Shown: positions 5,865 through 28,541 of the stretch, piece by piece
Numbering within the stretch: position 1 is the first letter of the stretch
Layout of the letters: the number at the start of each line of letters is the position of its first letter
IMG/VR virus record: IMGVR_UViG_3300027969_000162
Coordinates: 1 to 45,113 of that record
Length of the DNA: 45,113 bases
Direction: 5' to 3' (one strand)
DNA from: a virus
Notes under the pieces: model-generated
Told to the model about the DNA's origin: nothing
Database searches by the model: none
What the model saw: only the letters and a program-made list of their open reading frames with translations
Program-made: the position numbers and the translations under genes

Positions 5865-5998
5865 TGTGGCGCATAAAGTATTACTTGACCTCAGGACAGT
5901 TGAGATCTAAAACATTCCCAACTCTAGAAGCGGCCACTAAATTTATAGTGTATTCTATATGCGCTTGGGATGTCTACGACTGTTATAAGATTGATTAA
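5864..5998 (+). CDS. Tiny protein coupled to the BI-1 gene
   Basis: The product is 44 residues beginning MWRIKYYLTSGQLRSK, with a Tyr/Cys-rich C-terminal half (YSICAWDVYDCYKID). Its ATG overlaps the stop of the BI-1-like gene by one base (TAATG), so it is very likely translated by coupling. Its end overlaps the convergent nucleotidyltransferase gene by four bases. No family is recognised. The precise junction spacing argues for a real gene. Confidence 0.5.
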   Translation: MWRIKYYLTSGQLRSKTFPTLEAATKFIVYSICAWDVYDCYKID

Positions 5999-6705
5999 CC
6001 TAAAGACTGGGCCTGTTCTAGGCTCAGCTCTTGATCTTCTAGTTCGCGAATTTTATCTGTAATTTCATCAATAAGGCCTAGGTTTCTCAGTATTTTGAAA
6101 ACTAGGTTTTCTACTGACCACTCGCCCGCACGTTCTAGTCCTGCCTTGCGCATGTTGGTGATTTTTTCTTTGGCCAGTCTCAACCGGTTGAGATCTTTGC
6201 CTAACAGAGCAGATTCAATGTCGTGGATGACTGAATCTTTTTTAGCTTCTACAGCACTATCATCTACTTTGGGTTTTATCTTTTTAGGTTCAACCAGCCA
6301 TTGATTGCGAGCTATGCTATACACTCCGGTGCTGTGGTGTTTTTCTTCTCGGCCTTGAACATAACATTCAACAGGCAGGCCTTTGATAGTGATATTGTGT
6401 TGCTCGGCCCAGAGTGCCTTTTTGGCATTGAATAGTTCGCGGGCCGCTTCTCCTACCTCACCTTGAACGATAATGTGCAGATCTAGGTCGCTGTGTTCAG
6501 TCCAGGTATAGTTGGCATTTGACCCTGTAATTGTGTAATCTACTACATCGAGATCAATGCCTATAAACTCTTGAAATGCGTCGGCAATTTCTTTTAATTT
6601 ATCTGCGACTGCTGGGTCGATTTGATCACCGTCCCATATCTTGGGATTCAGTCGGCGATTGACTGTGATTAGATCTGATCGTTCTTGTAATTCTCTTAGG
6701 CGCAT
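5995..6705 (-). CDS. Nucleotidyltransferase-fold protein
   Basis: The product is 236 residues. Gly61-Ser62 followed by Asp73-x-Asp75 (GSNANYTWTEHSDLDLHII) is the catalytic signature of the polymerase-beta-like nucleotidyltransferase superfamily (MNT/CCA-adding type). The C-terminal 80 residues are a charged helical region (ERAGEWSVENLVFKILRN). It lies at the downstream end of the gp41 operon, three bases after the small gene at 6709. Possible roles are AMPylation or tRNA or small-molecule modification; the substrate is unknown. I recall similar proteins as unnamed conserved genes in aquatic T4-like phages. Confidence 0.65.
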   Translation of the reverse strand: MRLRELQERSDLITVNRRLNPKIWDGDQIDPAVADKLKEIADAFQEFIGIDLDVVDYTITGSNANYTWTEHSDLDLHIIVQGEVGEAARELFNAKKALWAEQHNITIKGLPVECYVQGREEKHHSTGVYSIARNQWLVEPKKIKPKVDDSAVEAKKDSVIHDIESALLGKDLNRLRLAKEKITNMRKAGLERAGEWSVENLVFKILRNLGLIDEITDKIRELEDQELSLEQAQSLG

Positions 6706-6708
6706 CCA

Positions 6709-6945
6709 TTATTTAGCCCACATTAAGTGGTATTGTGTTAATGTACGATCATCGTAAAATTCTGCTACTAAACGACAGTGTATGTTGTTTCTTTCTAATA
6801 CTATTTGACATTGATCTTCAGATTGTGTTAACAACCAATTGGTATGATCTAATCCTATTGTTTTATGCACTTTGGGCCAATCAATTTCAATGTTTTCGTC
6901 CTCGGGATCCGACCACTTGTACAACTCTACTTTTTTAGTCTTCAT
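6709..6945 (-). CDS. Small conserved protein downstream of gp41
   Basis: The product is 78 residues beginning MKTKKVELYKWSD, with a QCQIVLERNNIHCRLVAEF strand pair. The ATG at 6945 overlaps the end of the helicase gene by 11 bases; upstream in-frame TTG codons are less likely starts. It is probably translated by coupling with gp41. The function is not recognised. Confidence 0.6.
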   Translation of the reverse strand: MKTKKVELYKWSDPEDENIEIDWPKVHKTIGLDHTNWLLTQSEDQCQIVLERNNIHCRLVAEFYDDRTLTQYHLMWAK

Positions 6946-8371
6946 CACCAAACTGCTTGTTTAAAATCTCACGCATCTTACTTGACTCAACTGTGGCTCT
7001 AATTTTGCCTACAGGTGCTCCCTGTGTAGGATCAGTTATAACCCCATCATCGTCAATGCGGCCTTGAATAGTACTACGGGCTTTGATGCTTTCAATAATA
7101 CTTGAACTGCCTCTGCTGGTGGCTCCGTTGTTCTCTTGTTCGTCCTCGGGTAGGTCACTAATACGCAAACTCTCAAGATTAAACTCTAGATCAATCTTCA
7201 TACCCACACCACTGCTGGAGCGAGTCTTCATCAACTGTAATTGATATCTACCACGCTCACGCATAGCACGGCTGGTAAAAATGCCAAACACGTTGTCAGC
7301 AGTTTGAATCTTACTTAATCCACCACTAATGTGACTGTGATCATATTCCACTTCCTCTACCGCCCCACGATTTAACTGTGCGGCTGTGACAAACACACAG
7401 TTTTTTTCCACTGCTAGATTGCGCAATTCTTCTGAGACATACTTGTCTTTGATAAACAAGTCTGCTGGTGAAATCTTCTTGCTGAGTGGCATCAACAAAT
7501 CTAAATAGTCAACCAACAATACGTCAACTTTCTTGCCTACTTTGATTTCATATTCTTTTAGGTATGCTCGAATATCGTTGGCAGTCTTACCACTTGGCAT
7601 GTACTTTATCTGTAGCAGGCCGGATTTCTTACCAATAATTTTAACTTTCATTTCAACATCATCGATGTCTTTGAAAATGTCTTTGGTTGATGTTCCTGTT
7701 AACATTGCGTCAATACGCATAGACACCAGTGCTTCTGAAAGTTCAAGAGTTAGGTATACAACATTTAGGCCCATCAAAGCCCAGTTAACGCCCAGATTGG
7801 CCAAGAACAAACTTTTACCTGCACCCGAGCCGCCAGCAAAGATGTTCAGTTCACCTCGATTGAATCCGCCAAACAGTTTACGATCCATACAGGGCCATCC
7901 TGTACTAACCTGCCCATTCTTGTCCTTGATGCTCATCAATCGGCCACGAGGATCTAGAAAGTAGTCTGTGCCCATGTCACGAGCAAGACCAATCTGTACC
8001 GCTTCTTTGATCAATACTTCCACTGCACCGTAGTCATGTTTTTCTAGTAGATCAGCTGATTGTATAATTGCACGTTCAAGAGCCTTGTGTTGAGTAAATT
8101 TTTCAAACTCATCCATGAACCAATCCATGTGACCGTCTTTAAGATCTTCTGGACGTTTAAGGTCAACCCTGCAGGTGGCATTGACCATTTCATAGTCCGG
8201 CAATACATTATAGCCCTTGGCATATTCATGCACAAATTCTGCTGCATCCTGTAGTTTGCGATCAAATAATGTGTGATCAAAAATACCTTGACAACGAACA
8301 AATACTTCTGCATCTGCCAGCATGAGTTCAAGATATAGTTTTTGTACTTCGTAATCGTATGTCTTTATCAT
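6935..8371 (-). CDS. 41: Replicative DNA helicase (T4 gp41 / DnaB family)
   Basis: The product is 478 residues, close to T4 gp41 (475). It unwinds DNA 5'-3' at the replication fork as a hexamer and works with primase gp61. The N-terminal helical domain is followed by the RecA-like domain with Walker A GGSGAGKS (about residues 180..187), the YLTLELS strand typical of DnaB proteins, and Walker B LLVDYLDLL (Asp about 288). The ATG at 8371 is preferred; an in-frame GTG lies slightly upstream. TATAAT at 8378..8383 sits six bases before the ATG, so its mRNA may have almost no leader. Confidence 0.92.
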   Translation of the reverse strand: MIKTYDYEVQKLYLELMLADAEVFVRCQGIFDHTLFDRKLQDAAEFVHEYAKGYNVLPDYEMVNATCRVDLKRPEDLKDGHMDWFMDEFEKFTQHKALERAIIQSADLLEKHDYGAVEVLIKEAVQIGLARDMGTDYFLDPRGRLMSIKDKNGQVSTGWPCMDRKLFGGFNRGELNIFAGGSGAGKSLFLANLGVNWALMGLNVVYLTLELSEALVSMRIDAMLTGTSTKDIFKDIDDVEMKVKIIGKKSGLLQIKYMPSGKTANDIRAYLKEYEIKVGKKVDVLLVDYLDLLMPLSKKISPADLFIKDKYVSEELRNLAVEKNCVFVTAAQLNRGAVEEVEYDHSHISGGLSKIQTADNVFGIFTSRAMRERGRYQLQLMKTRSSSGVGMKIDLEFNLESLRISDLPEDEQENNGATSRGSSSIIESIKARSTIQGRIDDDGVITDPTQGAPVGKIRATVESSKMREILNKQFGDED

Positions 8372-8377
8372 ATTACT

Positions 8378-8407
8378 ATTATACACTAATTGCTAGGTGC
8401 TTTGCAA
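8378..8407 (-). promoter_or_regulatory. Possible sigma70-type promoter before gp41
   Basis: On the minus strand TTGCAA (8407..8402), an 18-base spacer and a perfect TATAAT (8383..8378) are seen inside the end of the carbamoyltransferase gene. The -35 match is modest. Confidence 0.45.
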
Positions 8408-9320
8408 CACCAAAGTTGTATTTCCACTCTCTTTGTTTAGTGTGATACAATACTGCACCGATGCTACTCGATGGGTCTCCAGGACTAGGCAAAGTCCAAC
8501 GATACTGCCACATGGGCTCTACAATTTTTTTATTAGTTGCTGAATTCATAGCGCATCCGCCCATGTATACTAGGCAATCGGTGTTGACTAATTTCTTAGC
8601 TTCTAGCATGACCATGCGGATTTGATCCTCAAACACCATTTGAACAGCAGCGGCAAGATCTTGTTCGTCTTGTAAGGTCTCTATATAAAATGTTTGATCG
8701 TTGACACCTTTGTGAAAATTATAATTTAATTCTAAAAGACCTGTAAAATATTTCTTTATTCTATGATAAAAAACCTTAGGATTACCTTTTTCGGCCATGG
8801 CCTGTAATTTCCATTCGTCCTGAATTGGAGTCATTCCTAGAGCGTGAGTAAATGCACTATAGAACAATCCTAGACTATTTGGATAATTTCTGCTCCAAAC
8901 TTTGCGCATTTCGCCATGCTTGCCTTCCCAGATGGTGGCACATTCGAACTCACCTATGGCGTCGAGTACCACAACAGCACAATGATTAAAAGGACTGGTA
9001 TAGTAGCCTGCGGCTGCGTGACTAGCATGATGCGGTGTATAAGTGATTGGAGCATAATGTTGCGCTTTCATATATCTACGTGGAAGTACTGTCATGTCTA
9101 AGACACGATTCCATTGACCTGCACGTAGTTGTCTTGCCTTCTTTATCCAGGGACGTTCATACCAAAAAATACGATCCGGTGCTCCAACATGTAGGGCATC
9201 AGTAATTATTTTGCTGTCTAACTCATCCGAAACGCCCGTTTGGTTAGACCATAGACTGCCATCCTTGAATACAGCTAGACTAGATCCGTGATTAAGGGCA
9301 TTTACCCCCCACATAATCAT
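8379..9320 (-). CDS. Carbamoyltransferase, N-terminal (NodU/CmcH/TobZ-type) domain only
   Basis: The product is 313 residues. The HHASHAAAGYY motif (His97, His98, His101), the following VVVLDAIGEFE strand (Asp120), GGCAMNSATN and the PGDPSSSIGA motif are diagnostic of the Kae1-like domain of NodU/CmcH O-carbamoyltransferases. These proteins transfer carbamoyl groups to sugars or antibiotics. Full-length family members are about 550 to 600 residues; here the separate C-terminal carbamoyl-phosphate-handling domain is missing. I recall similar short versions from marine T4-like phages, so this is probably a conserved phage form and not a broken gene. The gene sits between gp61 and gp41 in an overlapping operon (ATGA with the 38-residue gene). 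The target might be a nucleotide, DNA base or glycan. Confidence 0.8.
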   Translation of the reverse strand: MIMWGVNALNHGSSLAVFKDGSLWSNQTGVSDELDSKIITDALHVGAPDRIFWYERPWIKKARQLRAGQWNRVLDMTVLPRRYMKAQHYAPITYTPHHASHAAAGYYTSPFNHCAVVVLDAIGEFECATIWEGKHGEMRKVWSRNYPNSLGLFYSAFTHALGMTPIQDEWKLQAMAEKGNPKVFYHRIKKYFTGLLELNYNFHKGVNDQTFYIETLQDEQDLAAAVQMVFEDQIRMVMLEAKKLVNTDCLVYMGGCAMNSATNKKIVEPMWQYRWTLPSPGDPSSSIGAVLYHTKQREWKYNFGVAKHLAISV

Positions 9321-9433
9321 TTGTAGATAAATGGATCACGTTTACGCAATTCTTCTAAACGTTTCTTCCATGCCTTACGTTCTTGATACTTGTGCCAGGG
9401 ATATAAAATAAAGTCCAATATTTTTTTAATCAT
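9317..9433 (-). CDS. Tiny basic protein between gp61 and the carbamoyltransferase
   Basis: The product is 38 residues, beginning MIKKILDFILYPWHKYQ and ending DPFIYK, strongly basic in the middle. It overlaps the end of the primase gene (9426..9433) and the start of the carbamoyltransferase gene (ATGA), as expected of a coupled gene. The Tyr-Pro-Trp-His and Asp-Pro-Phe-Ile-Tyr motifs are the kind of conserved small phage protein I associate with this locus. Function is unknown; it could be a replisome accessory peptide. Confidence 0.6.
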   Translation of the reverse strand: MIKKILDFILYPWHKYQERKAWKKRLEELRKRDPFIYK

Positions 9434-10448
9434 TTTGATTCTCCATCACTGCTATATTGTTTAGCATCTTTCTTTTTTCAATTTCGATCTTTGCAGGATT
9501 TGATGTTGCTGTTTTTATAGCATCAACAACTACAAATAGTTTTCCATATTTTAATACAGCATCTGCGCAATCTTTTATAGAATCTTCCCATGTAGGAAAT
9601 GCTATTGACCAGCCTAGTTCTTTGGCTTGATCTATTAGAAACGTACCTGCTTTATCTTGATCGGGAATAACAATTACTTCTTTGCCTATACTGTTAATTA
9701 TCCTTGCCTGTTGATCTGATATTTCATTAGTGAGCAATGCAACACCGCCTACGCTAAGGGCATCAAACGGGCCTTCTACCACAAACAGATATCGATGTTC
9801 ATCTGGTTGTTCATCAACATTAAACACAAAAAAAGGATGTTGATCTGATAGGTATTTAGGCTTTCCGTCTTTAACTTTACGAGCAGTACTACCAACGATC
9901 TTGCCATCGTAGACAAACGGAATAATTACTCTATCTGCGTATCCAGGCAGGGGCGACCAATAAAAATGTCTGCTTGCAGGATCATATCCACGATTAACCA
10001 CATATTCAGCAACTGTGATTAGTTGTTGTTCTTCGCTGTTGTTTAGCTTTGCATCTAACCATTCAATTAAGGGTAATGCGCCTTCAGGCAAAGGCTTCTC
10101 TGTGAATGTGGGTTTTTCAACAAATGCCTCCGGTTGATACTCTGCCGACTCAGTCTTCATTGCCTCAAACACCAATTGTTTGATGTCGTCGTCATTGGCT
10201 CCTAGCCATTGACAGAGGCTTTTGAATTTAGGAGTAATCGGTGAGCCGGGTTTCCAACCTGTGGAATATTTACAATTGAAACAATTATAGACTATGCTAT
10301 CTGTAATCATAATGCCACCACGCTTTCTAGTGTCGTGAGCGTGACCTCTATGTTGGCAGCAGGGGGCGTTGAAACTGGTCCAGCCGCTGGGACTGGATTT
10401 TAATTTCGAAGGAAGAAGAGTTCTAAACTTATCAAGAACAAGGGTCAT
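9426..10448 (-). CDS. 61: DNA primase (T4 gp61-like)
   Basis: The product is 340 residues, matching T4 gp61 (342). It makes the short RNA primers for lagging-strand synthesis together with gp41. The N-terminal zinc site is visible (Cys30/Cys31, His33, Cys56, Cys59 in CFNC). The catalytic TOPRIM domain carries the glutamate motif LFVVEGPFDAL (Glu225) and the acidic motif IVIPDQDKAG (Asp263, Asp265). A consensus early promoter at 10455..10483 lies just upstream, inside the end of the preceding structural gene, so replication genes can be expressed early despite a late neighbour. Confidence 0.88.
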   Translation of the reverse strand: MTLVLDKFRTLLPSKLKSSPSGWTSFNAPCCQHRGHAHDTRKRGGIMITDSIVYNCFNCKYSTGWKPGSPITPKFKSLCQWLGANDDDIKQLVFEAMKTESAEYQPEAFVEKPTFTEKPLPEGALPLIEWLDAKLNNSEEQQLITVAEYVVNRGYDPASRHFYWSPLPGYADRVIIPFVYDGKIVGSTARKVKDGKPKYLSDQHPFFVFNVDEQPDEHRYLFVVEGPFDALSVGGVALLTNEISDQQARIINSIGKEVIVIPDQDKAGTFLIDQAKELGWSIAFPTWEDSIKDCADAVLKYGKLFVVVDAIKTATSNPAKIEIEKRKMLNNIAVMENQND

Positions 10449-11674: not shown

Positions 11675-12227
11675 CACCAATAATCATAACACGATTAAAG
11701 GCTTTGTCTTCGAATTCAAAACGTTTTATCCCGTCATAAAGATATTCGCTCATAGGATATCTATTCATTAGATCTTTAATAGATGACATAGAATTAACGT
11801 GATCGTCGTCTATCATGTCGCTGGCCTGTAAGCATACTATAGTACTGGTAGGTATATTGTTAAACCATTCATCGGATTGCATGTGCTCAACACTTGAATT
11901 GATTACAACATCGGGTCTAGGTTTGTATTCTAATATATTAATATCAGTGGTATGCGCTTTAAACTCCCAAGCTCGGTAGACCCAAAGATTATTAACGGCA
12001 TCTGCAACTATTTCACAATCGGGATCTTGATCAAAGCTACGAACTTCTAGAACTGGGATTTTGTTTCGAGTGCGTATTAAAAAGTTAGCAAGCGCATACC
12101 AACCGGCTAAAATCCATATGCGATATCCATCTTCAATTGGTCTATGTTCTTCTAATGTACGCTCAAGTCTTTCAACTAACCACAGCTTGCTCTGTACTTG
12201 TGCAGCACTAAATGCATCAAAGTTCAT
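11667..12227 (-). CDS. Rossmann-like protein, methyltransferase-related
   Basis: The product is 186 residues. IWILAGWYALANFLI resembles the first strand and loop of a SAM-binding Rossmann fold, VLEVRSFDQDPDCEIVAD resembles the acidic second strand that binds the ribose, and DVVINSSVEHM resembles motif IV. The canonical GxGxG is altered to AGWYA, so methyltransferase activity is not certain. The start overlaps the stop of the preceding gene (TAATG). I recall it as conserved in marine T4-like phages next to the DnaE-like gene below. Confidence 0.5.
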   Translation of the reverse strand: MNFDAFSAAQVQSKLWLVERLERTLEEHRPIEDGYRIWILAGWYALANFLIRTRNKIPVLEVRSFDQDPDCEIVADAVNNLWVYRAWEFKAHTTDINILEYKPRPDVVINSSVEHMQSDEWFNNIPTSTIVCLQASDMIDDDHVNSMSSIKDLMNRYPMSEYLYDGIKRFEFEDKAFNRVMIIGVK

Positions 12228-12805
12228 TATGAAAATCCATAACTAATTTGTTCACAGATTAAATTCATCTGTACAATAATAGCAACAGCATAGGCTGTGG
12301 CATGACTCTTTTTAAAATAGTAATCACCAGTCTCTGGTTTCGTCCACACTTCCGTCATGATCGTAGTCCAATCTTTCCCAATCAGATAACGTTTCGCAGG
12401 GCGGATCATCGCGAGAACGGCAGATAATTGTTCCACGGAAGCTGGCAGGGTCTTCCGTATTATAGCTCCATGCCCGTTCAAATGAAATAACAGATTTACA
12501 AAGTCGTCCTGTAGTAGTAGATCCCATAGTGGCTCCTGATTCATTAATTGAACTAGATGTTCTTCATTACGAACACCTTTATAAATTCCAACATTAAGAA
12601 AATCTATTTTAAAATATTTTTCATCTTCTGCCTGTTCATAGGGGATTTGACATAGACCGCTTACTGCATCCACAGGAACTTCATGCATATAAACACCGGT
12701 ATTATGCTTGATTAATTTACCGTTGTCTAATCTGCTAGCAGGGATGTGTTCAAACAATTTTAATGCTTGATCTCTATCTATAAAATCTATGTCAATATCT
12801 GGCAT
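12227..12805 (-). CDS. Mini DNA polymerase III alpha (DnaE)-like protein
   Basis: The product is 192 residues, against about 1160 for DnaE. The order of bacterial Pol III alpha palm and finger motifs is kept in condensed form. PDIDIDF lies at residues 2..8 (Asp5, Asp7), like the DnaE motif PDFDVDF. KIDFL lies at 66..70 (Asp68), like KFDFL, which carries the third catalytic Asp. A block at about 94..137 (PLWDLLL, LFHLNGHG, LPASVEQLSAVLAMIRP) matches the DnaE stretch before its RPGP motif, and FKKSHATAYAVA (about 164..175) resembles FNKSHSAAYAL. The PHP, clamp-binding and OB parts are absent. Whether it polymerises, binds primer-template or interferes with the host replisome is unknown. It is coupled to both neighbours by TAATG overlaps. 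Confidence 0.75.
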   Translation of the reverse strand: MPDIDIDFIDRDQALKLFEHIPASRLDNGKLIKHNTGVYMHEVPVDAVSGLCQIPYEQAEDEKYFKIDFLNVGIYKGVRNEEHLVQLMNQEPLWDLLLQDDFVNLLFHLNGHGAIIRKTLPASVEQLSAVLAMIRPAKRYLIGKDWTTIMTEVWTKPETGDYYFKKSHATAYAVAIIVQMNLICEQISYGFS

Positions 12806-13050
12806 TAGTTTAACCTAGTACTCTCAAAAAGCAACAACGGTAGAGTTTCTGCTAAAAATTGAGCATACTCTTCAGCATCTTCTTGATCTTCAAAACCTGA
12901 AAACTTCACGTAAACATCGTCCGAGTCATCTGCTACTACCACTTCAATTTCAACATCATCTCTAGAAATATGTTCTTCGTTTGCAGCTAATTCTATTTCT
13001 TCGTCAATGAGTTCGGGCTCAGCCTCTTCTCGTCGCTTTTTATAAATCAT
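12805..13050 (-). CDS. Highly acidic small protein
   Basis: The product is 81 residues beginning MIYKKRREEAEPEL, then almost continuous Glu/Asp with Val/Ile strands (DDVEIEVVVADDSDDVYVKF) and a C-terminal helix. It overlaps the zinc-finger gene upstream (ATGA) and the DnaE-like gene downstream (TAATG). The charge pattern resembles proteins that mimic DNA or bind basic partners, but this is only composition. No family is recognised. Confidence 0.6.
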   Translation of the reverse strand: MIYKKRREEAEPELIDEEIELAANEEHISRDDVEIEVVVADDSDDVYVKFSGFEDQEDAEEYAQFLAETLPLLLFESTRLN

Positions 13051-13766
13051 AAAATGTTCGCCTCCTTGATGACATCTTTAACTAACTCTACATCTGCAGG
13101 TAAAGATTTAAAACGACGGGACCAATAATTAGGATCAATAACTGGACCAACTATTTCTAATTGTTCGTCATTCATGCGCTTCAACATCTCTTTCCCTGAC
13201 TTACTATTTAACACCATCCAAGGACTTACTAGACCTTCTTTAATATCATGTGTAGCACGGTTTAAATTAACGTATTGGAAGTAATGCTCCCAAGGAGCAC
13301 TATTGGTATCTCCCCAATCCATCATGGCTTTGATAGTTCTCTGGATTGCTCCATCAGCTGGTTCTATCTTAATTAGTTCACTTATGTACGTGTCATACAG
13401 TTCGTCTCTACACCAATGATCTAATTTAATTCCACTTTTGATCACAAACTCAATAAATCTTTCCGGGTATATTGGATTTGTGTTTGCAAGAAAACTGCCA
13501 AACTTAACGAATGCGGTATAATAGGGACTGGATGCAAATTCGTCAAAGGTCTTTTGCTTGGCTGATTTCTGTGTGAGTTCGTAAAATCTATTGTATGTCA
13601 ACATACCAGATTGCACATGTTTTTCTCCCTTTGACATGTGTCTACGTTTTTGTTCACAGACATGCACTACCAAAGTTTTTTCTTTAGCAAATAATTTATT
13701 ACAGTATTCGCACTTATAATTTAATGTCTGCAATTTGCTTTTTATCCCAACCAAGGTCCTTAGCAT
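13047..13766 (-). CDS. Zinc-finger protein conserved in T4-like phages
   Basis: The product is 239 residues. The N-terminal finger YKCEYCNKLFAKEKTLVVH is C2H2-like: Cys19, Cys22, His35, then Cys37 or His43. Next come blocks FYELTQKSAKQKTFDEFASS, PYYTAFVKFGSFL and RFIEFVIKSGIKLDHWCRD. I recall proteins with this layout as conserved but unnamed in marine T4-like phages. The ATG at 13766 overlaps the previous gene by 53 bases, which is long; no better in-frame start is evident before the finger. A nucleic-acid-binding regulatory or replication role is likely but unproven. Confidence 0.65.
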   Translation of the reverse strand: MLRTLVGIKSKLQTLNYKCEYCNKLFAKEKTLVVHVCEQKRRHMSKGEKHVQSGMLTYNRFYELTQKSAKQKTFDEFASSPYYTAFVKFGSFLANTNPIYPERFIEFVIKSGIKLDHWCRDELYDTYISELIKIEPADGAIQRTIKAMMDWGDTNSAPWEHYFQYVNLNRATHDIKEGLVSPWMVLNSKSGKEMLKRMNDEQLEIVGPVIDPNYWSRRFKSLPADVELVKDVIKEANIL

Positions 13767-14190
13767 ATTCTTTGATCTCTTTGTCTGTAGTTATTGCTGC
13801 TAGAGTCTCCACATCCGCCATTTTCATAGTTGGAAATAATTCTGCTAGAAAATCTATTTTTTTATTTTTTTGTTTCTTTAAAGGGATCCACTCGTGAAAG
13901 TATGTTTTACCATTTCTCATACTACACGCACATAGCGTCTGCCAAACTAACTTGGGATGTTTTTGAATATCGTTCCAATTTTTGTTGTAGTATTCGTTGA
14001 CGGTTAACACAAAATGTTCTTGCACTTCTCTACTAGTAGATTTAACATTACTGATATATCTATTCAATGTCCAGAAATCACCTTTAATCTCTTTTCGACC
14101 TTCTTCGGTGGCAGCATCCCATAGATCTTTCATGCCAAGATCTACTGCTGGAATTATTTCTTTAAAAAGGTCTATGTGTTTATTTGCCAT
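13714..14190 (-). CDS. Conserved phage protein of unknown function
   Basis: The product is 158 residues beginning MANKHIDLFKEIIPAVD. It is mostly alpha-helical, with FWTLNRYISNVKS, VNEYYNKNW and a C-terminal AITTDKEIKEYAKDLGWDK helix. I considered the clamp-loader small subunit gp62 because of length and helical pattern, but the cyanophage gp62 proteins I remember look different. It sits in the operon between the zinc-finger gene and the small gene at 14180 with short overlaps. Confidence 0.6.
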   Translation of the reverse strand: MANKHIDLFKEIIPAVDLGMKDLWDAATEEGRKEIKGDFWTLNRYISNVKSTSREVQEHFVLTVNEYYNKNWNDIQKHPKLVWQTLCACSMRNGKTYFHEWIPLKKQKNKKIDFLAELFPTMKMADVETLAAITTDKEIKEYAKDLGWDKKQIADIKL

Positions 14191-14811: not shown

Positions 14812-15318
14812 TTAAATTACCTTATCTAATTGTAATACTTCGCTCTGTCTAGATACTTCTTTAACAAAATATGCGCACGGCGGGCTCGGCCCATCGTGCA
14901 ACGGTACTGTTAATAACTGTCCGTTTTTCATCTTTGGAAAATACCATCTTACATCTTGATAGATATTTACTATCTCGATCGCCATATACTCACATTTAAA
15001 ACCGTTAATGGGATTGAAAATAAATGCGTCAAACCCTCGTTCATTTAAACTAGTTAAGGGCAGGACTTCTGGGTCTAATCCACAGTCTCTATCACCAACT
15101 ATCATACACCAGTCTAAGGGCATTTGCACTTCATATCCGCCAATGTTTAATAAAATTGCTGGACTGTTAAATGACTCTAGAAATATCAAAGGCATAAAAA
15201 AGAAATCAGGTTCGTTAGGATTAGAATTATCTAATACTGAAAATCTAGTATCTTCATCAACCTCATCCGGCAATTCGTTTAGATCAAACGATCTATTATT
15301 CAATGTTAAAATTTTCAT
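14812..15318 (-). CDS. Conserved phage protein downstream of uvsW
   Basis: The product is 168 residues. Blocks FFFMPLIFLESFNSPAILL, VQMPLDWCMIVGDRDCGLD and VRWYFPKMKNGQLLTVPL, followed by PPCAYFVKEVSRQ, are distinctive and match a conserved unnamed protein I recall beside uvsW in marine T4-like phages. The ATG at 15318 overlaps the uvsW stop by four bases (ATGA), so the two are translationally coupled. No catalytic motif is evident. Confidence 0.65.
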   Translation of the reverse strand: MKILTLNNRSFDLNELPDEVDEDTRFSVLDNSNPNEPDFFFMPLIFLESFNSPAILLNIGGYEVQMPLDWCMIVGDRDCGLDPEVLPLTSLNERGFDAFIFNPINGFKCEYMAIEIVNIYQDVRWYFPKMKNGQLLTVPLHDGPSPPCAYFVKEVSRQSEVLQLDKVI

Positions 15319-16769
15319 ATACTTACCTTGGTTATTGAAAAAGGATATTTTGCATCCTTGTAAAACTTTTTACGTTCTGTTAAATGTCGCTTGCTGTATT
15401 TGCATTGACTTGTAATGTCCCAAATTTCTACATGGTCCTTGTCTTCTGCTTTTCTAATACCTCGCCCAATACTCTGTATAACTCTGACAAAGCTCTTTCC
15501 GGGCTCAACAAGAACCAAATTAAAAATACGGGGGATATTAATACCCACAGCGGCCACACCATAAGTCGCCACAATAATCTTGCCATCACTAGTTTTAATT
15601 TCATCATACTCTTCTTTCCTATCGTCTAGTTTCATTCCACCACTAACGAATACAGCTTCCGGCATGCGCTCAATTAATTTATTTCCTGTGTCAATTCTAT
15701 TGATTAACACTAGAGTATTTCCTGTTAAAGCTAGTGATTGTATTTTATTTGCCATCCAAGTAATTCTAGAATCGTCAGTGACTAAAAATGCATATTCGTC
15801 TGCAAAACTTCTAAATGCTTGAACTTCATTTGTCTGCAAAATATTAATTTGCAGTTGTGCCAACACACCTTTTTCTTGTAGGTCATGTGCCGATACTTGA
15901 TTAATAACTGGACCTATGCTGGCAAGTATACCTTGGAATTCCCATGCTTCTTTAGGAATAGTCCCAGTTAGTCCCCAACGTATTGCACAGTTGCTAAAGT
16001 TCTGTGTCAATAATTTTGTTAGTACTTCTGCCTTGGCCTGATGTACTTCGTCGATAATAATCGCAGATACCCCAGCAGTGAATTCTGCCAATGATAACAC
16101 TTCGTCATCATAACTTTTCTTATCAAGTACGTTAAGACTTTGCCAAGTACATATTGTATGTGTCTTGCCTAATTCTTTTCGGTCGCCAAAATATACACCA
16201 ACATCAAGTCCCAAGTTCTTATAATCTTCTTCAGTTTGTACCACTAGTGATTTGTTAGGTACAATGACCATTGTACGACCATACGGCTCACAAAGATGAC
16301 TGAGTGTAGCAGTAGTAATTGTTTTACCGGCACCTGTCGCTACCTCCTGTAGACTTTGTGTATTGTCTAAAAACTTGTTAACAACGTCATATTGATAGTC
16401 ACGGAGTATGATAGGTTGTCCTGCTTGAGGATGTCCTTTAGGCCATGTCTTGCCTTTGTCTGCCCAATAATTTTCAGTAATAGGAGCAAATTCTATCTTG
16501 CTGTGCTGTCGAAGATCTTCGATATCTATTTCATAGCCAGCTTCTTCTATGATGGGTAATATGACATCCAAGTGTGCAAGATAACCAGTACCACCAATGC
16601 TAAAATAAGTTTTAGTCCCATCCCATCTTCCTAATTTATATGCTGGCATATGACGGGCATATGGCAGATCAAATTTTAATTTGTTAACAATCTTGCGCCG
16701 TGTTTCCACACTAAGTCCTTCTAACTTAATATTGACTTCATCGCGGATAACTAGTTTACAAGCTGACAA
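15315..16769 (-). CDS. uvsW: UvsW helicase (recombination/repair)
   Basis: The product is 484 residues (T4 UvsW about 500). It is a superfamily 2 helicase that branch-migrates recombination intermediates, unwinds R-loops and shuts down origin-type initiation late in infection. An N-terminal DNA-binding domain (residues 1..95) precedes the core: ATGAGKT (144..150), VIVPNKSLVVQ motif Ia, IIIDEVHQ (DEVH 240..243), GLTGTIPK motif III, and QSIGRGIRK motif VI near residue 430. It overlaps the upstream gene by 14 bases. Confidence 0.92.
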   Translation of the reverse strand: MSACKLVIRDEVNIKLEGLSVETRRKIVNKLKFDLPYARHMPAYKLGRWDGTKTYFSIGGTGYLAHLDVILPIIEEAGYEIDIEDLRQHSKIEFAPITENYWADKGKTWPKGHPQAGQPIILRDYQYDVVNKFLDNTQSLQEVATGAGKTITTATLSHLCEPYGRTMVIVPNKSLVVQTEEDYKNLGLDVGVYFGDRKELGKTHTICTWQSLNVLDKKSYDDEVLSLAEFTAGVSAIIIDEVHQAKAEVLTKLLTQNFSNCAIRWGLTGTIPKEAWEFQGILASIGPVINQVSAHDLQEKGVLAQLQINILQTNEVQAFRSFADEYAFLVTDDSRITWMANKIQSLALTGNTLVLINRIDTGNKLIERMPEAVFVSGGMKLDDRKEEYDEIKTSDGKIIVATYGVAAVGINIPRIFNLVLVEPGKSFVRVIQSIGRGIRKAEDKDHVEIWDITSQCKYSKRHLTERKKFYKDAKYPFSITKVSI

Positions 16770-18870: not shown

Positions 18871-19269
18871 ATGACAAAATTTTCAAAACGAATAAAAAAA
18901 ATCAATCGACGAGCTAGAAATTTGCTGGTAATAGGCACGGCTTTTGGTAATTTGGAAGAATTGCTGGATTCATTTGATACCGTGTTTGTAGTTGGCGGTG
19001 ATCCACCTATAATTAAAAAACGTAATTTAATTTACAGAGAAAATTACAATGACATCCATACACTAACCGATATTGACATTATCATAGTTGACTTTGATCA
19101 CGGTAATTTTATTCCAGAATTGACGCAGGTGTGGCGAAGAACTAATCCTGCAATAGTTGTACAAGGGCCTGACTTAATTTCGAAAGATGTTCAAAAAATA
19201 CTGAAATCAGATCATTATAATATTGTCGAAGTGGTATATGGATACTATCTCTGGAAAAATAAAAAGTGA
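18871..19269 (+). CDS. Unknown small Rossmann-like protein of the glycan cassette
   Basis: The product is 132 residues. A basic N-terminus (TKFSKRIKKINRRARN) precedes LLVIGTAFGNLEELLDSFD, a strand-loop-helix like the first unit of a nucleotide-binding fold. Then come DTVFVVGGDPP, DIDIIIVDFDHGNF and AIVVQGPDLI. It may be a SAM- or nucleotide-binding protein, or part of a sugar-transfer enzyme; no catalytic signature is decisive. It is the first of a rightward trio with gmd and a glycosyltransferase inside otherwise leftward genes. Confidence 0.5.
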   Translation: MTKFSKRIKKINRRARNLLVIGTAFGNLEELLDSFDTVFVVGGDPPIIKKRNLIYRENYNDIHTLTDIDIIIVDFDHGNFIPELTQVWRRTNPAIVVQGPDLISKDVQKILKSDHYNIVEVVYGYYLWKNKK

Positions 19270-19281
19270 TTGGAAAACCAC

Positions 19282-19289
19282 TATAAATA
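19282..19289 (+). promoter_or_regulatory. Late promoter octamer TATAAATA (T4 consensus)
   Basis: A perfect T4 late box predicts +1 at about 19295 and a 22-base leader with TTAGGA before the gmd ATG at 19317. Confidence 0.75.
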
Positions 19290-19316
19290 ACACACGCTAT
19301 TATTGTTAGGAATCCT

Positions 19317-20342
19317 ATGAAAAAAATTGCCTTTGTTACTGGAATGACTGGACAAGACGGTCCGTACCTTGCTAAATTACTTTTAGAAAAAAATTATAAA
19401 GTCTATGGACTAGTTAAACGATATTCAAATCCAAATTTAGATAATATTAAATTCTTAGGAATTGAAAACGATATTGAGTTAATTACCGGTGATATTACAG
19501 ACGACGGTTGCATGAATCATTTGGTAAAAAGTCTAAGGCCGCACGAATTTTATAATCTTGCTGCTCAAAGTTTTGTTGGAGCAAGCTGGGATTTAAATAA
19601 AATGACCACTGAAGTTAATGCAGTTGGAGTTTTAAATATTCTTAACTCTATCAAACAACACAGCTCGGATACCAAATATTATCAAGCCAGCACCTCAGAA
19701 ATGTTTGGCAACAGTATTGAAATTTCAGGCGGAAAACAAGATGAAAAGACTCCTTTCTGGCCACGTAGCCCGTACGGTGTTGCTAAGTTGTATGCCTATT
19801 GGATGACTGTAAACTTCCGTGAAAGTTATAGCTTACATGCATCAAACGGTATTTTGTTTAATCACGAATCACCTATTAGAGGTAAAGAATTTGTCACTCG
19901 CAAAATTACAGATGGCGTTGCCCGTATCAAACTTGGCCTACAAGACAAAATTGTTCTTGGAAATCTAGACGCAAAACGTGACTGGGGATTTGCAGGAGAC
20001 TTTGTTGAAGCCATGTGGTTAATGCTACAGCAACCAGAGCCAGGCGATTATGTTATTGCTACAGGAGCACAATATACCATTGGTGATTTATTAGAGCTTT
20101 CATTTAAACATGCCGGTATTGATAACTGGCAAAGCTATATTGAGACTAATCCAGCATTTGTACGTCCTGCAGAACTGCATAGTCTATGCGGTGATCCCAC
20201 CAAAGCAGAAACTGTATTAGGATGGAAACGTAAAACAGATTTTGATGGACTTGTTAAAATGATGGTTGAGGCTGACATTAGAAGATATAACGGAACCAAA
20301 GAATTAAATTTAGATCCAAACTGGATGACACAAACAAAATGA
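19317..20342 (+). CDS. gmd: GDP-mannose 4,6-dehydratase
   Basis: The product is 341 residues, a usual length. It converts GDP-D-mannose to GDP-4-keto-6-deoxymannose, the branch point to fucose, rhamnose, perosamine and colitose. The NAD(P) loop TGMTGQDG (8..15) is the typical Gmd form. The catalytic set is Thr126-Ser-Glu128 in ASTSEMFG and Tyr153-x3-Lys157 in SPYGVAK. The ending FVRPAELHSLCGDPTKAETVLGW is a Gmd hallmark. It overlaps the next glycosyltransferase by ATGA. No fucose synthase (WcaG) is recognised beside it, so the next step may be done by the host or by the epimerase at 28542. Confidence 0.9.
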   Translation: MKKIAFVTGMTGQDGPYLAKLLLEKNYKVYGLVKRYSNPNLDNIKFLGIENDIELITGDITDDGCMNHLVKSLRPHEFYNLAAQSFVGASWDLNKMTTEVNAVGVLNILNSIKQHSSDTKYYQASTSEMFGNSIEISGGKQDEKTPFWPRSPYGVAKLYAYWMTVNFRESYSLHASNGILFNHESPIRGKEFVTRKITDGVARIKLGLQDKIVLGNLDAKRDWGFAGDFVEAMWLMLQQPEPGDYVIATGAQYTIGDLLELSFKHAGIDNWQSYIETNPAFVRPAELHSLCGDPTKAETVLGWKRKTDFDGLVKMMVEADIRRYNGTKELNLDPNWMTQTK

Positions 20343-21163
20343 AAAAAGCAGTAGTCACTACGTTTCACAAAGCAGGCTATGAAAAATATGGCCGCAAGAT
20401 GATTGAAACATTTTTAAAAACTTGGCCTGCGGATATCACTTTGTATGTCTATTCAGAAGATTGTGAAATTGTCGAATCTGCTCCTAACCTAGTTGTTAGA
20501 GATTTACATGCTACTGTGCCTGCACTGGTAGCATTTAAAGAAAAATGGAAAGATGACCCTAAGGCAAGGGGCGAAGTGGCTACCGGTCCAGTTGATCGAA
20601 AAGGCAAAGCACCCGGAGTGGGCTTTCGCTGGGATGCTATTCGGTTCAGTCATAAAATCTACTCAGTGTGCCATGCCGCTGCCAACTGTGATGCAGATGT
20701 GTTGTTTTGGATGGATGCCGATATGATATGTCATACTCCTGTGCCGCATCACTTTATAGACAAAATGGCTGCACAAAACATTGGTTTAGGATTTTTAGGC
20801 AGAGAGAAAAAGTTTACAGAGTGCGGCTTGTATTCTATGAATTTACAAGATACAAACACTCAAGAATTTTTAGTTGAATTTCAAAAGGCCTACGATACCG
20901 GCAGATTGTTTACCATGAGTGAATGGAATGATTGTTGGGTTTTTGATATTGTGAGAAAAGAAGTTAAGCAACGTCATCCAGAATGGCAATGGTATGATTG
21001 GAGTGCTGGCCTGTTTAAAGGAGAAGGTCATCCCTTGATCAATAGTGCATGGGGTGCTTATCTAGACCACCTCAAAGGCAAACGTAAAGACTACGGTAAG
21101 AGTGCAAAAAGCGATTTAATCGTAAATCGACACGAAAAATACTGGATCAGTTCTCCAGGCTAA
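20339..21163 (+). CDS. GT-A type glycosyltransferase
   Basis: The product is 274 residues. The metal-binding Asp126-Ala-Asp128 lies in LFWMDADMI. It begins MKKAVVTTFHKAGYEKYGRKMIETFLKTWP, the same opening logic (strand, Tyr, then TFLKTWP) as the gene at 21147 (CVETWLKYWP) and the domains at 22789, 26396 and 27818. It would transfer a sugar from a nucleotide donor to an unknown acceptor in the cytoplasm. It is coupled to gmd by an ATGA overlap, so GDP-linked donor sugars are plausible. It overlaps the convergent gene at 21147 by 17 bases. Confidence 0.75.
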   Translation: MKKAVVTTFHKAGYEKYGRKMIETFLKTWPADITLYVYSEDCEIVESAPNLVVRDLHATVPALVAFKEKWKDDPKARGEVATGPVDRKGKAPGVGFRWDAIRFSHKIYSVCHAAANCDADVLFWMDADMICHTPVPHHFIDKMAAQNIGLGFLGREKKFTECGLYSMNLQDTNTQEFLVEFQKAYDTGRLFTMSEWNDCWVFDIVRKEVKQRHPEWQWYDWSAGLFKGEGHPLINSAWGAYLDHLKGKRKDYGKSAKSDLIVNRHEKYWISSPG

Positions 21164-21860
21164 ATTCGTGTTTAGAGTGTTTGGCCTTGTAGTGTTCGAT
21201 ATAAGGTCCAAGTACAGTGTGACGTAGTGGCGTCTTATAGCCCTTGGTAAAATCTTTACATAGATCATTTCCGTAGGCGTTTAATTTCTCAAAAACATAA
21301 CCATAGACATCATTGTCGTAGAATCTTCTCAACATGCTGTTGTCTCGTTCTACATAATGTCTTTTATATTCACCGGCAAATTCTTTAAACTGCGGGTGAC
21401 GAGTATTAACTGCAAAGAACCCAGTCTCCGGAACAAACCATCTACCTGGACTTCCGTCTTTAGCGGTAAAGTATGTTACTCCCATGTGTGTACTAAGAGC
21501 CTCATCAGGCAATACTTCTAATAGTAAATTCATAGGTAATTCTTTTACTGATAACACATCAGCGTCTACCCAAACGATTCTGTCTGCGGTTGAATTTTCC
21601 ATAGCGTGAATAAAGCTAAATGCTTTTTTTGCAAACTTTTTAACCTGTTTATCAGCAGTAGACTGAAATTCATGATACTCGGGTTTGAAGTCATCAAACG
21701 ATATCTGCTTAAGCCTAGGATGTTCTGGTAAACTGAATTCTTCAACATAACAGGTCAATGTTAATTCTTCCGGCCAATATTTCAGCCACGTTTCTACACA
21801 ATCCTTTCCTATAAGATCGTAATAGTATTGATTAAAACTTGTTATAATTTCTATTTTCAT
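21147..21860 (-). CDS. GT-A type glycosyltransferase
   Basis: The product is 237 residues from the ATG at 21860, which overlaps the upstream gene by four bases (ATGA); longer in-frame starts enter that gene. DxD is Asp99-Ala-Asp101 in IVWVDADVL. The later ETGFFAVNTRHPQFKEF segment matches IDTGIVAFNSRHSDFQTF in the gene at 22789, marking common descent. The C-terminal YIEHYKAKHSKHEF resembles the YLDHLKGKRKDYG ending of the gene at 20339. Donor and acceptor are unknown. Confidence 0.75.
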   Translation of the reverse strand: MKIEIITSFNQYYYDLIGKDCVETWLKYWPEELTLTCYVEEFSLPEHPRLKQISFDDFKPEYHEFQSTADKQVKKFAKKAFSFIHAMENSTADRIVWVDADVLSVKELPMNLLLEVLPDEALSTHMGVTYFTAKDGSPGRWFVPETGFFAVNTRHPQFKEFAGEYKRHYVERDNSMLRRFYDNDVYGYVFEKLNAYGNDLCKDFTKGYKTPLRHTVLGPYIEHYKAKHSKHEFSLEN

Positions 21861-22792
21861 ACATACTTTCTCATATGAGCCCAACACTCTCCATTTTCAA
21901 TTTCATCAAAGTTCCAATGGAACATGGCCAGGCGTTCTACCCATTTTTGTCTATCTAGTAAATTTGGAGTTTCTATCTGTGAAAGATCTAGATTTGCAAT
22001 TTCTGCACATTGACTATGTATAGGATCAGTAACAAAAATTGGATATCCTTCTATGGCTGCTCCTACCGTGGGGCTCGAATTATGATTAACTACAGCCCAA
22101 CAATTTTTTAAATCTTGCTCTAACGTGCTGCCATCTTTTGACAATCGTACACCCTTTAACATTCCTATTTTCTTAATTAGGTTGTTTGGGCTAAGATATC
22201 CCTTAGCACCTTTATCTCCTGGATGGGCACGAATAATGATATCTCTGGTTGAATGTTTTCTTATTTCTTTAATTGTCTTTGCAGTCCAATCAATTACATC
22301 GTAGCCGCCCATTGACCATCCACCGTTACGCTGTAGACATAATAAAATATGATTGCCGTTAGATCGATAATCTCTTAATGCAATATCTAAGTTTGCAGAT
22401 AACTTAGTCCACCGACTAGGATCAATTACGTTATCGCAATAATTTCCTGTATTTGGAAATATTCCATTATAGCTATATCTAAGATAGTGTTTGGGATTTG
22501 CAGTATTTTTATAAAGAAATAAATTACTGTCAGCTAGTATTGTATGTTTGCCTCTACGATTTTGAAAATCAACAATTTGTTTTCTAAAATCTAAATGCGG
22601 ACTAGTTTTAGAATTTTCATGGACCCATCCGATCATCATGGCAACGTCTGCTTCTATAAGAGTTCTGTCAGAATGTAATACTACCTCGTCTCCGGTATAC
22701 GCTACGCCCATAGCAAAACGCTCAAGAATTTCTCCTTTTTCTACGTTTTTATTATTAGGTGGTAGGCAACCAAGGTAGGATACAAATTTCAT
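21857..22792 (-). CDS. Capsule-type glycosyltransferase (KpsC/KpsS-like), copy 2
   Basis: The product is 311 residues. DIIIRAHPGDKG, then CWAVVNHNSSPTVGAAIEGYPIFVTD and a C-terminal DLSQIETPNLLDRQKWVERLA match the motif order of copies 1 (17995) and 3 (24233). The whole protein keeps an N-terminal half (YLGCLPPNNKNVEKGEIL) specific to this copy. It overlaps its neighbours by ATGA on both sides. It probably adds a sugar, perhaps Kdo-like, to a lipid or glycan acceptor at the inner membrane; this is an inference from the family. Confidence 0.7.
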   Translation of the reverse strand: MKFVSYLGCLPPNNKNVEKGEILERFAMGVAYTGDEVVLHSDRTLIEADVAMMIGWVHENSKTSPHLDFRKQIVDFQNRRGKHTILADSNLFLYKNTANPKHYLRYSYNGIFPNTGNYCDNVIDPSRWTKLSANLDIALRDYRSNGNHILLCLQRNGGWSMGGYDVIDWTAKTIKEIRKHSTRDIIIRAHPGDKGAKGYLSPNNLIKKIGMLKGVRLSKDGSTLEQDLKNCWAVVNHNSSPTVGAAIEGYPIFVTDPIHSQCAEIANLDLSQIETPNLLDRQKWVERLAMFHWNFDEIENGECWAHMRKYV

Positions 22793-24243
22793 TTTCTCTT
22801 TTTCTCTTTAACGAGATTACCGTTTTCGCTATTCAGTGCATTTTTTCTGTCAATGCCTAGGTAATGAGTGAATATATCTTTAAGATAACTTTTCTCCATC
22901 GCAACACGATTTATAGCATCACCTGGAATATCGTTCCATGTACTATAATGAGGAACATATGTTTTTAGGCTCCAGGTCTTGCTTAACTCTGTCACTGCAT
23001 AATGATCATAGGGCTGCGGAACTTTATAAATTCTTCCATCGTACCACATTTTAGAATAGTCTCTAATGAATGTTTGGAAATCTGAATGTCTAGAATTAAA
23101 TGCTACAATGCCGGTGTCGATGTAGTCTTTAGAAGGATGATCACTTCCGCAATTTAATGTTCCCCATACTTCTGTTCTTGGATGCAACAGTTCGATAGCT
23201 CTTGATTTTGTTAATGGCTGTGTTACCATAACATCGGCGTCCAACCATATAACTAGGCCCTTAAAGGTCCTTGCGGCCCAGACCTGTGTACGACTTTTTT
23301 TCCAAAACCTATCGGCTTTTGTTCCACCCATACCTTCGGATAACCATGGATCGTCTGGTGACGCCACTTCTTTATAGAAGCTGACATTTCTACCTAAACC
23401 TAAATCAACAGGCTTGTCATCCCAAACAAATACAATGTCGCCTGGCAAATTTTCCCAGCTTGGTAATGTTATATTGGCAACATAATTATAGTATTCTCTA
23501 GATAGTGAAGTCACCCAAGTGATTGCAGTATGAGTTTGAGTATTACTGAGACTTAATTCTTGAGCGTAGTCGATAAGATACTTGTACCATACATCTTTAT
23601 ATTCACAATCTTTGTATTTGTCAAACCACGGTCCGCCTTCAGTCCAATGATAGGCACAAGGTTTTCCTACTTCTTCTTCTTTGTTCCACCCAACTAAAAA
23701 ATTATATCTAGCAGGCAGTTCTCCAATTTCTTCATCTTGAAGCCATTGGAACCTATGTAAGTATGCACCGTCTCTGGTGTTGACATCATCAGGTGTTAAT
23801 CGTAAATTGCCAGGATGTTCACAGTTCCATAAGATAACACTAGACCAATTTTTTCTAGGATATTGCGTTTGTGTTTTGCCATCCATTTTCACAGTATTAG
23901 TTGGTTTGTGATCGTGCTTAACTACCATAACCGCATACCTAGGATCGGCATTTTTAAATAATTCTTCAATATTGATATCCCATACTATATCGCAGTCACA
24001 GAATAGTGCCCAGCCTTGATAGTTAGCCAATGCCGGAACTAGGAATCTAGTAAATGTAAAATCAGTGCTGCCCAAATTATCAACTTCACGAGTATAGAGA
24101 CCTTCTCTTCTTAATTGTGATTGCTTTAATGGCTTTACATCGGCAGTGGGTGAATTTTTATATATTGAATATTCACATACTTTGTAAGCAATATCTTCTC
24201 TAGCATCGTATCCAATATAAACTGGCAGTGTATCAAGATCCAT
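22789..24243 (-). CDS. Two-domain glycosyltransferase (tandem GT-A)
   Basis: The product is 484 residues. Domain 1 (1..225) opens VYIGYDAREDIAYKVCEYS and has Asp83-Cys-Asp85 in LFCDCDIVW, like GT8-type enzymes. Domain 2 (238..484) opens AITWVTSLSREYYNYV and has Asp335-Ala-Asp337 in VIWLDADVMV, preceded by RFWKKSRTQVWAA, a block shared with the proteins at 26396 and 27818. Two active sites in one chain suggest consecutive transfers on one glycan. The start overlaps the end of copy 3 by 11 bases. The Lys-rich tail is low complexity. Confidence 0.78.
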   Translation of the reverse strand: MDLDTLPVYIGYDAREDIAYKVCEYSIYKNSPTADVKPLKQSQLRREGLYTREVDNLGSTDFTFTRFLVPALANYQGWALFCDCDIVWDINIEELFKNADPRYAVMVVKHDHKPTNTVKMDGKTQTQYPRKNWSSVILWNCEHPGNLRLTPDDVNTRDGAYLHRFQWLQDEEIGELPARYNFLVGWNKEEEVGKPCAYHWTEGGPWFDKYKDCEYKDVWYKYLIDYAQELSLSNTQTHTAITWVTSLSREYYNYVANITLPSWENLPGDIVFVWDDKPVDLGLGRNVSFYKEVASPDDPWLSEGMGGTKADRFWKKSRTQVWAARTFKGLVIWLDADVMVTQPLTKSRAIELLHPRTEVWGTLNCGSDHPSKDYIDTGIVAFNSRHSDFQTFIRDYSKMWYDGRIYKVPQPYDHYAVTELSKTWSLKTYVPHYSTWNDIPGDAINRVAMEKSYLKDIFTHYLGIDRKNALNSENGNLVKEKKRK

Positions 24244-25036
24244 TTAAAATTCTCCAAGCTGTTCCGTCTTTTAGTTCGTTAATGTGAAATTGACCATAGG
24301 CAAGATGGTGCGCCCATGCTTCAACTTTTTCCATTTCTGGATAATAGGGTGTTTCTATCTTTGATAGGTCTTGTTCAGTTACTGGCTTTGCCGCATGAGT
24401 AGGGGAGAGTGTAAATGCGGGGTATCCGTACATAACTGCTTCTGTGGCGGCGTTGCTATTAAATGTAATTAGTGCATGAACATCGTCGTCCAACGCTTCT
24501 TTAAGAGAATTAGTAACCATTCTATCAGTTCTACTCTTTACACGATCTCTAACTTCAATAGGACGGTCTGTATATTGTTTAATAGTGTCAATGGTTTCTT
24601 GTACCCACTGATCTAAATCCAAGTCGTAAAATTTCATGGGCTTTTCGTCGGGCTTGGCAATTAAAATCTTTCTTCCGCCCTTCTTCCATTTGTGTAATGG
24701 TATTGCTAATCGTTTAAATCTATCAGCTGGTCTATTAACAATTTCGTCGTGTTGCAAATCGTTTTTTACTATTCTATGATAATACTTCCACCCCATAGGG
24801 TTCAACGGACCTTGTTGATTGCCCATGTATCCGGTATCCATAAAATAAAAATCACGGCCTTCAAACCAGCAGCGTTTCATTATTTTATGTTTAAGTATTC
24901 CTCTTAACACTAACGGATCTTCACTATCGTCATATTTAAAATCATCTGAGCTGATTACTCGGCCACCGGATCCTATAGCAAACATATTAATATATTCGTC
25001 TTTTCCTTCTTTACTTAGAAATATCCAGTTGTTCAT
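24233..25036 (-). CDS. Capsule-type glycosyltransferase (KpsC/KpsS-like), copy 3
   Basis: The product is 267 residues. ALITFNSNAATEAVMYGYPAF replaces the VVNHNS loop of copies 1 and 2, and DLSKIETPYYPEMEKVEAW and FHINELKDGTAW match copy 2's ending (FHWNFDEIENGECW). The RPH motif of the other copies is changed to PIEVRDRVKSR, so this is the most diverged copy and may be inactive or have another donor. It overlaps both neighbours by a few bases in the leftward operon. Confidence 0.68.
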   Translation of the reverse strand: MNNWIFLSKEGKDEYINMFAIGSGGRVISSDDFKYDDSEDPLVLRGILKHKIMKRCWFEGRDFYFMDTGYMGNQQGPLNPMGWKYYHRIVKNDLQHDEIVNRPADRFKRLAIPLHKWKKGGRKILIAKPDEKPMKFYDLDLDQWVQETIDTIKQYTDRPIEVRDRVKSRTDRMVTNSLKEALDDDVHALITFNSNAATEAVMYGYPAFTLSPTHAAKPVTEQDLSKIETPYYPEMEKVEAWAHHLAYGQFHINELKDGTAWRILNGS

Positions 25037-26387: not shown

Positions 26388-26392
26388 GTTGA

Positions 26393-26400
26393 TATTTATC
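26393..26400 (-). promoter_or_regulatory. Late octamer GATAAATA, 5 bases before ATG
   Basis: The box (26400..26393 leftward) contains the TAA stop of the gene at 26396 and is followed by TCAAC and the ATG at 26387. Predicted +1 is the A of ATG. Confidence 0.7.
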
Positions 26401-27106: not shown

Positions 27107-27110
27107 CTTG

Positions 27111-27118
27111 TATTTATA
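27111..27118 (-). promoter_or_regulatory. Late promoter octamer TATAAATA, leftward
   Basis: A perfect T4 late box stands four bases before the ATG at 27106. It forms a divergent pair with the box at 27134. Confidence 0.7.
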
Positions 27119-27133
27119 TGCGTATATTATGAT

Positions 27134-27141
27134 GATAAATA
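27134..27141 (+). promoter_or_regulatory. Late promoter octamer GATAAATA, rightward
   Basis: Predicted +1 is about 27147, giving a 14-base leader with GGAG before the ATG at 27161, a normal Shine-Dalgarno layout. Confidence 0.7.
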
Positions 27142-27160
27142 TATTACAACGGAGATAAGA

Positions 27161-27751: not shown

Positions 27752-27804
27752 GTGTGCCTAATTGGATAGACAAGTATAATAGTTTTTTAGTAGTCTTTAA
27801 AGTT

Positions 27805-27812: not shown

Positions 27813-27817
27813 ATCTT

Positions 27818-28504: not shown

Positions 28505-28541
28505 TAAGTGTTCTATCATATTTCTTCATTAAATCATTCAT

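Follow-up and report, generated by a model that had tools for sequence, protein, structure and literature searches.

A 192-residue phage protein homologous to the C-terminal half of a split minimal DNA polymerase III alpha

A phage-specific minimal DNA polymerase III (Pol III) alpha has been described for the group 2.2 jumbo phages on the basis of genome comparison (Iyer et al. 2021, PMC7824862). It consists of two proteins, an N-terminal one that binds NTP and a C-terminal one that binds Mg2+ and template, which are encoded by distant genes and occur beside a family B polymerase; cooperation in making one of the strands, or in repair, was suggested. CBB_328 (172 aa), one of the N-terminal proteins, has also been described as a truncated form of Pol III alpha (PMC5259590). 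A search of the open-licence literature for experimental tests of split Pol III alpha activity returned none. In E. coli alpha, the metal ligands are D401, D403 and D555, whereas D405 is an extra Asp that is conserved in DnaE and replaced by Asn in PolC (PMC3919608), and H760 is the proposed steric gate (PMC8485763). The PHP and (HhH)2 domains are nearly universal in C-family polymerases (PMC3919608). The protein analysed here adds a member to the split minimal Pol III alpha already described, and its interest lies in the predicted enzyme itself, not in the novelty of the split arrangement.

The DNA under study (the window) is a virus fragment of 45,113 bases, corresponding to the whole of IMG/VR record IMGVR_UViG_3300027969_000162. 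An ORF on its minus strand (12805→12227, ATG at 12805) encodes a protein of 192 aa, hereafter referred to as the C-half, with the following features:

12227..12805, minus strand: whole ORF (phrog_11778, 192 aa), assigned by homology and predicted fold as the C-terminal subunit, binding Mg2+ and DNA, of a split minimal Pol III alpha
12782..12802, minus strand: PDIDIDF, residues 2-8; D3/D5 correspond to the catalytic D401/D403 of E. coli alpha and D7 to D405 (alignment; roles from PMC3919608)
12596..12610, minus strand: KIDFL, residues 66-70; K66 corresponds to K553 and D68 to the catalytic D555 (alignment, 81/81)
12398..12439, minus strand: SVEQLSAVLAMIRP, residues 123-136, corresponding to alpha ~627-640 (fingers; R639, P640); R135 and P136 in 81/81
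12281..12316, minus strand: FKKSHATAYAVA, residues 164-175, corresponding to FNKSHSAAYALV of the fingers O helix, with H168 at the position of H760; F164, K165 and H168 in 81/81 (PMC8485763)

The initial annotation had proposed a reduced relative of DnaE from four motifs whose joint occurrence by chance it considered improbable. All four were found in the translated ORF in the order PDIDIDF, KIDFL, SVEQLSAVLAMIRP, FKKSHATAYAVA. The protein matches the PHROG family phrog_11778 ('DNA polymerase') over residues 3-186 (E 5.1e-64), whereas a Pfam search with the 192-aa sequence alone and a phmmer search against the PDB returned nothing relevant. Since such single-sequence searches are weak by themselves, a profile of 81 C-half relatives was compared with one built from ten bacterial, plasmid and phage DnaE proteins. 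Residues 1-179 of the C-half profile were collinear with E. coli alpha 399-771, with a score of 75.8 (E-value 1.9e-9, given for one comparison); the best of 60 column shuffles reached 24.7 and the reversed profile 19.3. These controls rule out a chance motif match, and the four motifs reflect homology to Pol III alpha. Individually, 75 of the 81 relatives match TIGR00594 'polc' (best 4.8e-6) and 51 match PF17657 (Pol III finger domain) weakly.

The fold predicted by AlphaFold2 (mean pLDDT 91.6) points in the same direction. In a Foldseek search, Pol III alpha chains made up the first eight of 152 PDB matches, none of which reached E 0.001, and Pol III alpha structures were the sole whole-length fold matches. 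On VIA re-alignment, the predicted chain superposed on Taq alpha (3e0d) with Z 8.9 over 188 residues at 4.1 A, and its residues 1-190 on E. coli alpha 400-781 (2hnh) with Z 8.3; PolC-type chains (numbered 970-1304) reached at most Z 7.2, whereas 3.5 was the highest value for an unrelated chain. D5 and D7 lie on the first predicted strand (residues 4-8), with D3 just ahead of it, and D68 lies on the strand formed by residues 67-71. Profile alignment, phrog_11778 match and predicted fold, whose whole chain superposes on Pol III alpha (Z 8.3-8.9), agree with a reduced DnaE relative.

Across the 81 C-half sequences, D3, D5, D68, D7 and H168 are each invariant, as are K66 (K553), H34 (H511), R135-P136 (R639-P640), F164 and K165. 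Because D3 and D5 align with D401 and D403 and D7 aligns with D405, the catalytic pair is Asp3/Asp5 and not Asp5/Asp7. The earlier claim that three catalytic acids survive was therefore correct, with all of them unchanged among the homologues surveyed, whereas the set named, residues 5, 7 and 68, has to be replaced by D3, D5 and D68. The Asp at the D405 position, which separates DnaE from PolC, makes the protein DnaE-type in 81/81 sequences (D7 here). Compared with its closest relatives, the gene shows a dN/dS of ~0.11-0.14 (dN 0.055-0.076, dS 0.51-0.72) and is therefore under purifying selection. This argues against the decaying remnant of a captured host dnaE that the loss of most of DnaE might suggest; with >550 C-half relatives in IMG/VR, an invariant active site and a constant length and split point, such a remnant is scarcely credible.

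As the C-half starts at alpha residue 399, the GxGRGS segment lies outside it. The 192-aa chain lacks the NTP-binding first third of the nucleotidyltransferase domain (GPGRGS/GRGS motif, alpha ~273-393), and also the PHP, thumb, HhH and OB parts, most of the fingers and the clamp- or tau-binding parts. PHP and HhH_6 (PF02811, PF14579) gave no match in the records of 15/15 large relatives, with the E. coli control positive in both searches. The absence of the PHP, clamp-binding and tau-binding parts had been anticipated and is borne out by the alignment and, for PHP, by the empty search. The description of the protein as a compressed catalytic core holds in part: the compression is real for alpha 399-781 only, but the core is incomplete, its GPGRGS segment residing in a separate gene of the relatives. 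The same observation bears on the proposals that the 192-aa protein alone is a minimal nucleotidyltransferase, or a competitor or mimic of the host Pol III alpha. Its confident predicted fold by itself and its conserved catalytic acids would suit such roles, yet the GxGRGS segment missing from it is kept as a separate conserved gene in relatives, which argues against a stand-alone enzyme, and a decoy would have no need of the catalytic residues that are retained; mimicry is thus unsupported, and we regard this whole group of readings as very unlikely.

In the relatives, the missing NTP-binding part is a separate protein of ~170 aa (phrog_11127 / PF07733; e.g. CBB_328, Atu_ph07 gp316), hereafter the N-half. 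N-half proteins match PF07733 at positions about 20-96 of 260 only (20-95 for CBB_328 and its relatives), and the family is present in 15/15 large relatives, above the cut-off at its N-terminal third only. In the profile comparison they match alpha 262-393 with a score of 83.4, and in the predicted structure (pLDDT 90.9) residues 61-168 superpose on alpha 273-393 (2hnh, Z 8.4), with a best Pol III row of Z 10.6 and the next unrelated chain at Z 2.4. As the N-half corresponds to alpha 273-393 and the C-half begins at 399, the two proteins adjoin on alpha without overlap, about five residues falling between them. In the N-half loop, R137, G138 and S139 are invariant (53/53). The position of E. 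coli R390, invariant across the DnaE set used, is occupied by Glu in 96% of the same 53 sequences and by Asp in the rest (residue 165 of L114:5001-5504, alignment A4), so that the rebuilt site is not identical to that of DnaE. This change and the fixed split point may be details beyond the account of Iyer et al. 2021, although its figures or supplements perhaps contain them (PMC7824862).

In 98 of 100 N-half frames, the stop codon follows 35-36 residues past GxGRGS. Cyanobacterial DnaE is encoded by two genes and equipped with split inteins; it has full-length domains and a split site before FNKSH. Complementary DnaE pieces from two distant genes could by analogy be joined by protein trans-splicing. 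However, the N-halves end ~35 residues past GxGRGS (EFLR-stop) and the C-halves start within a few residues of DxDID, leaving no room for intein pieces. Neither intein pieces at the split ends nor a frame containing both parts was found in 98 frames of the C-half and 100 of the N-half, and the break at alpha 394-398 is not at the cyanobacterial position. Trans-splicing therefore appears exceedingly improbable.

Because the window is a fragment, the partner gene is seen in relatives only. A tblastn search of the 45-kb window with five N-halves gave nothing credible (best E 0.003), and the close relatives L001-L003 (89-91% identical) are also fragments. The nearest tested contigs with both halves are G016 and G018, whose C-halves are 70% and 67% identical, respectively, together with G021, G022 and G024. 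Both halves were present in 58 of 60 phage records with a C-half, among the matches listed, although many of these records are duplicates or near relatives and thus do not represent 58 independent cases; the two C-half records not among the N-half matches listed were PP728206 (a 109-kb record) and OP752703. Conversely, the C-half was found in 8/8 tested IMG/VR contigs >350 kb that carry the N-half. A viral_contigs scan with the Phosso N-half gave no match, whereas a closer marine N-half retrieved 274 relatives. Among the genes unique to the marine jumbo-phage cluster PGC_A, PF07733 has been reported as the commonest and as the only one carried by half or more of the members (PMC9123017); this gene is plausibly the N-half. 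The halves are separated by 34 kb in CBB and RaK2, 44 kb in Paride, 116 kb in SCTP-2, about 180 kb in G021 and Atu_ph07, and 224 kb in Phosso.

The C-half of the relatives is located between UvsW and primase/helicase genes, and the N-half lies a few genes away from the clamp loader. The window encodes UvsX and SSB as well as the following neighbours:

12805..13050, minus strand: adjacent small acidic ORF, next upstream (81 aa; also in L001, L027 and L044, not recognised in L067)
13047..13766, minus strand: conserved neighbour (phrog_11058) with a C2H2-type zinc finger near its N-terminus, candidate partner
13714..14190, minus strand: conserved neighbour phrog_11758 (158 aa)
9426..10448, minus strand: DNA primase (context)
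6935..8386, minus strand: DnaB-like replicative helicase (context)
15315..16769, minus strand: UvsW-type helicase (context)

The phrog_11058 gene adjoins the polymerase half in Phosso, Paride, RaK2 and CBB too, and C19, C22, H35 and C37 of its zinc finger are invariant in nine sequences; its product is a possible replisome partner. The phrog_11758 protein has 158 aa here versus about 265-281 aa in RaK2/CBB, the difference being due to an internal insert. A search of this neighbour (13714-14190) against PDB sequences gave nothing relevant, and no support was found for its identity as T4 gp62. Other genes of the region include a carbamoyltransferase-like gene (8379-9320, minus strand; phrog_1601) between primase and helicase, whose product comprises 313 aa here and in L001 and about 489 aa in L027 and L044, and, two genes downstream of the DnaB-like helicase, a further nucleotidyltransferase-domain gene (5995-6705, minus strand; PF01909, E 3.4e-5). 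A long island inside the replication region (18871-29507) encodes a GDP-mannose 4,6-dehydratase, an NAD-dependent epimerase, a cytidylyltransferase fused to a mannose-6-phosphate isomerase-type cupin, and glycosyltransferase-like genes. The protein encoded at 32698-33402 (plus strand) contains a repeated 'GQTTQGAGAVAVG'-like unit and has no Pfam match.

The family B polymerase expected by the initial annotation is found in 15/15 large relatives; in the ORF list of the 45-kb window, no polymerase-sized ORF was recognised as such. In six marine relatives, this enzyme keeps DINSLYP, YGDTDS and the FFDIE-type exonuclease motif. It appears to be distributed over two ORFs in Atu_ph07 (L085: gp276/gp277; 418 and 578 residues) and in Paride (OR805295.1, 88906-92683; 825 and 379 residues). 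The occurrence of a second polymerase core beside family B, earlier considered odd, is already part of the published description (PMC7824862). DnaQ-like PF00929 is absent from the 45-kb window and exceeds the cut-off in the records of only 7 of the 15 large relatives, so that a DnaQ-like proofreader is no constant companion.

Taken together, the 192-aa protein is probably one of two polypeptides, the C-terminal one, that make up a minimal C-family catalytic core, whose active site would be rebuilt in trans and which would make short extensions beside family B. The C-half would supply the three metal-binding Asp together with some of the palm and an abbreviated fingers element that includes the steric-gate helix, and the distant second protein of ~170 aa the triphosphate-binding GxGRGS loop; docking of the two chains in trans would then create one Pol-beta-type active site. 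Since the PHP, thumb, HhH/DNA-binding, clamp- and tau-binding regions and most of the fingers are missing, such an enzyme is expected to be distributive. Working without a clamp beside the intact family B replicase, it may make short extensions, be it in primer extension, gap filling or repair. Without the thumb and most of the fingers, it may be doubted whether the predicted enzyme can hold primer-template, which, together with the R390 change, is the main caution.

The loss of these large DNA-holding parts would also fit a catalytically inactive pair with a structural or regulatory replisome function, e.g. as a primer-terminus sensor or a scaffold among primase, helicase and clamp loader, given that its genes adjoin those for primase/helicase and clamp loader and that an intact family B polymerase (DINSLYP, YGDTDS, exonuclease motifs) does the bulk synthesis in relatives. 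In a scaffold, however, some of the metal ligands, steric-gate His and GRGS loop would be expected to disappear, whereas they are invariant in 81 and 53 diverse sequences, and we therefore consider inactivity unlikely. The more specific version of the two-chain catalytic core stands at about even chances in our judgement. In this version, two proteins whose genes lie up to 224 kb from each other jointly form the one active site of a functional DNA polymerase of ~360 residues, the first contributing the triphosphate loop and the second the metal ligands and steric gate; lacking clamp, thumb and PHP, the enzyme would act beside the family B replicase and might serve to extend primers or in repair. 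Should it prove active, it would rank with the smallest C-family polymerases, would provide a rare example of two separately encoded chains sharing one polymerase active site, and would reveal what Pol III alpha can do without. It would also bear on a question raised by Iyer et al., namely whether these pieces arose by reduction or represent an ancestral state (PMC7824862). The split pair is common in jumbo phages, as judged from the >550 C-half loci in IMG/VR.

Compared with E. coli DnaE, the protein keeps the equivalents of D401, D403, D405, D555, K553, H511, R639, F756 and H760, but it has no PHP, GRGS, thumb, HhH, OB, clamp or tau parts and lacks most of the fingers, the core being distributed over two genes. 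Cyanobacterial split DnaE likewise involves two genes but differs in split site, domains and intein pieces. The phrog_11127 / PF07733 N-half is the complementary half of the same enzyme, carrying the triphosphate loop and not the metal ligands. The C-terminal proteins of the group 2.2 split Pol III alpha (RaK2 ORF124, CBB gp287, Phosso gp437) share length, motifs, fold and neighbourhood with the 192-aa protein, and a family B background with its large relatives; the protein is 53% identical to its counterpart in Atu_ph07, 50% to that in Phosso and 38-39% to those in RaK2 and CBB; its sole differences from these are that it is a metagenomic member and that its partner gene lies outside the fragment.
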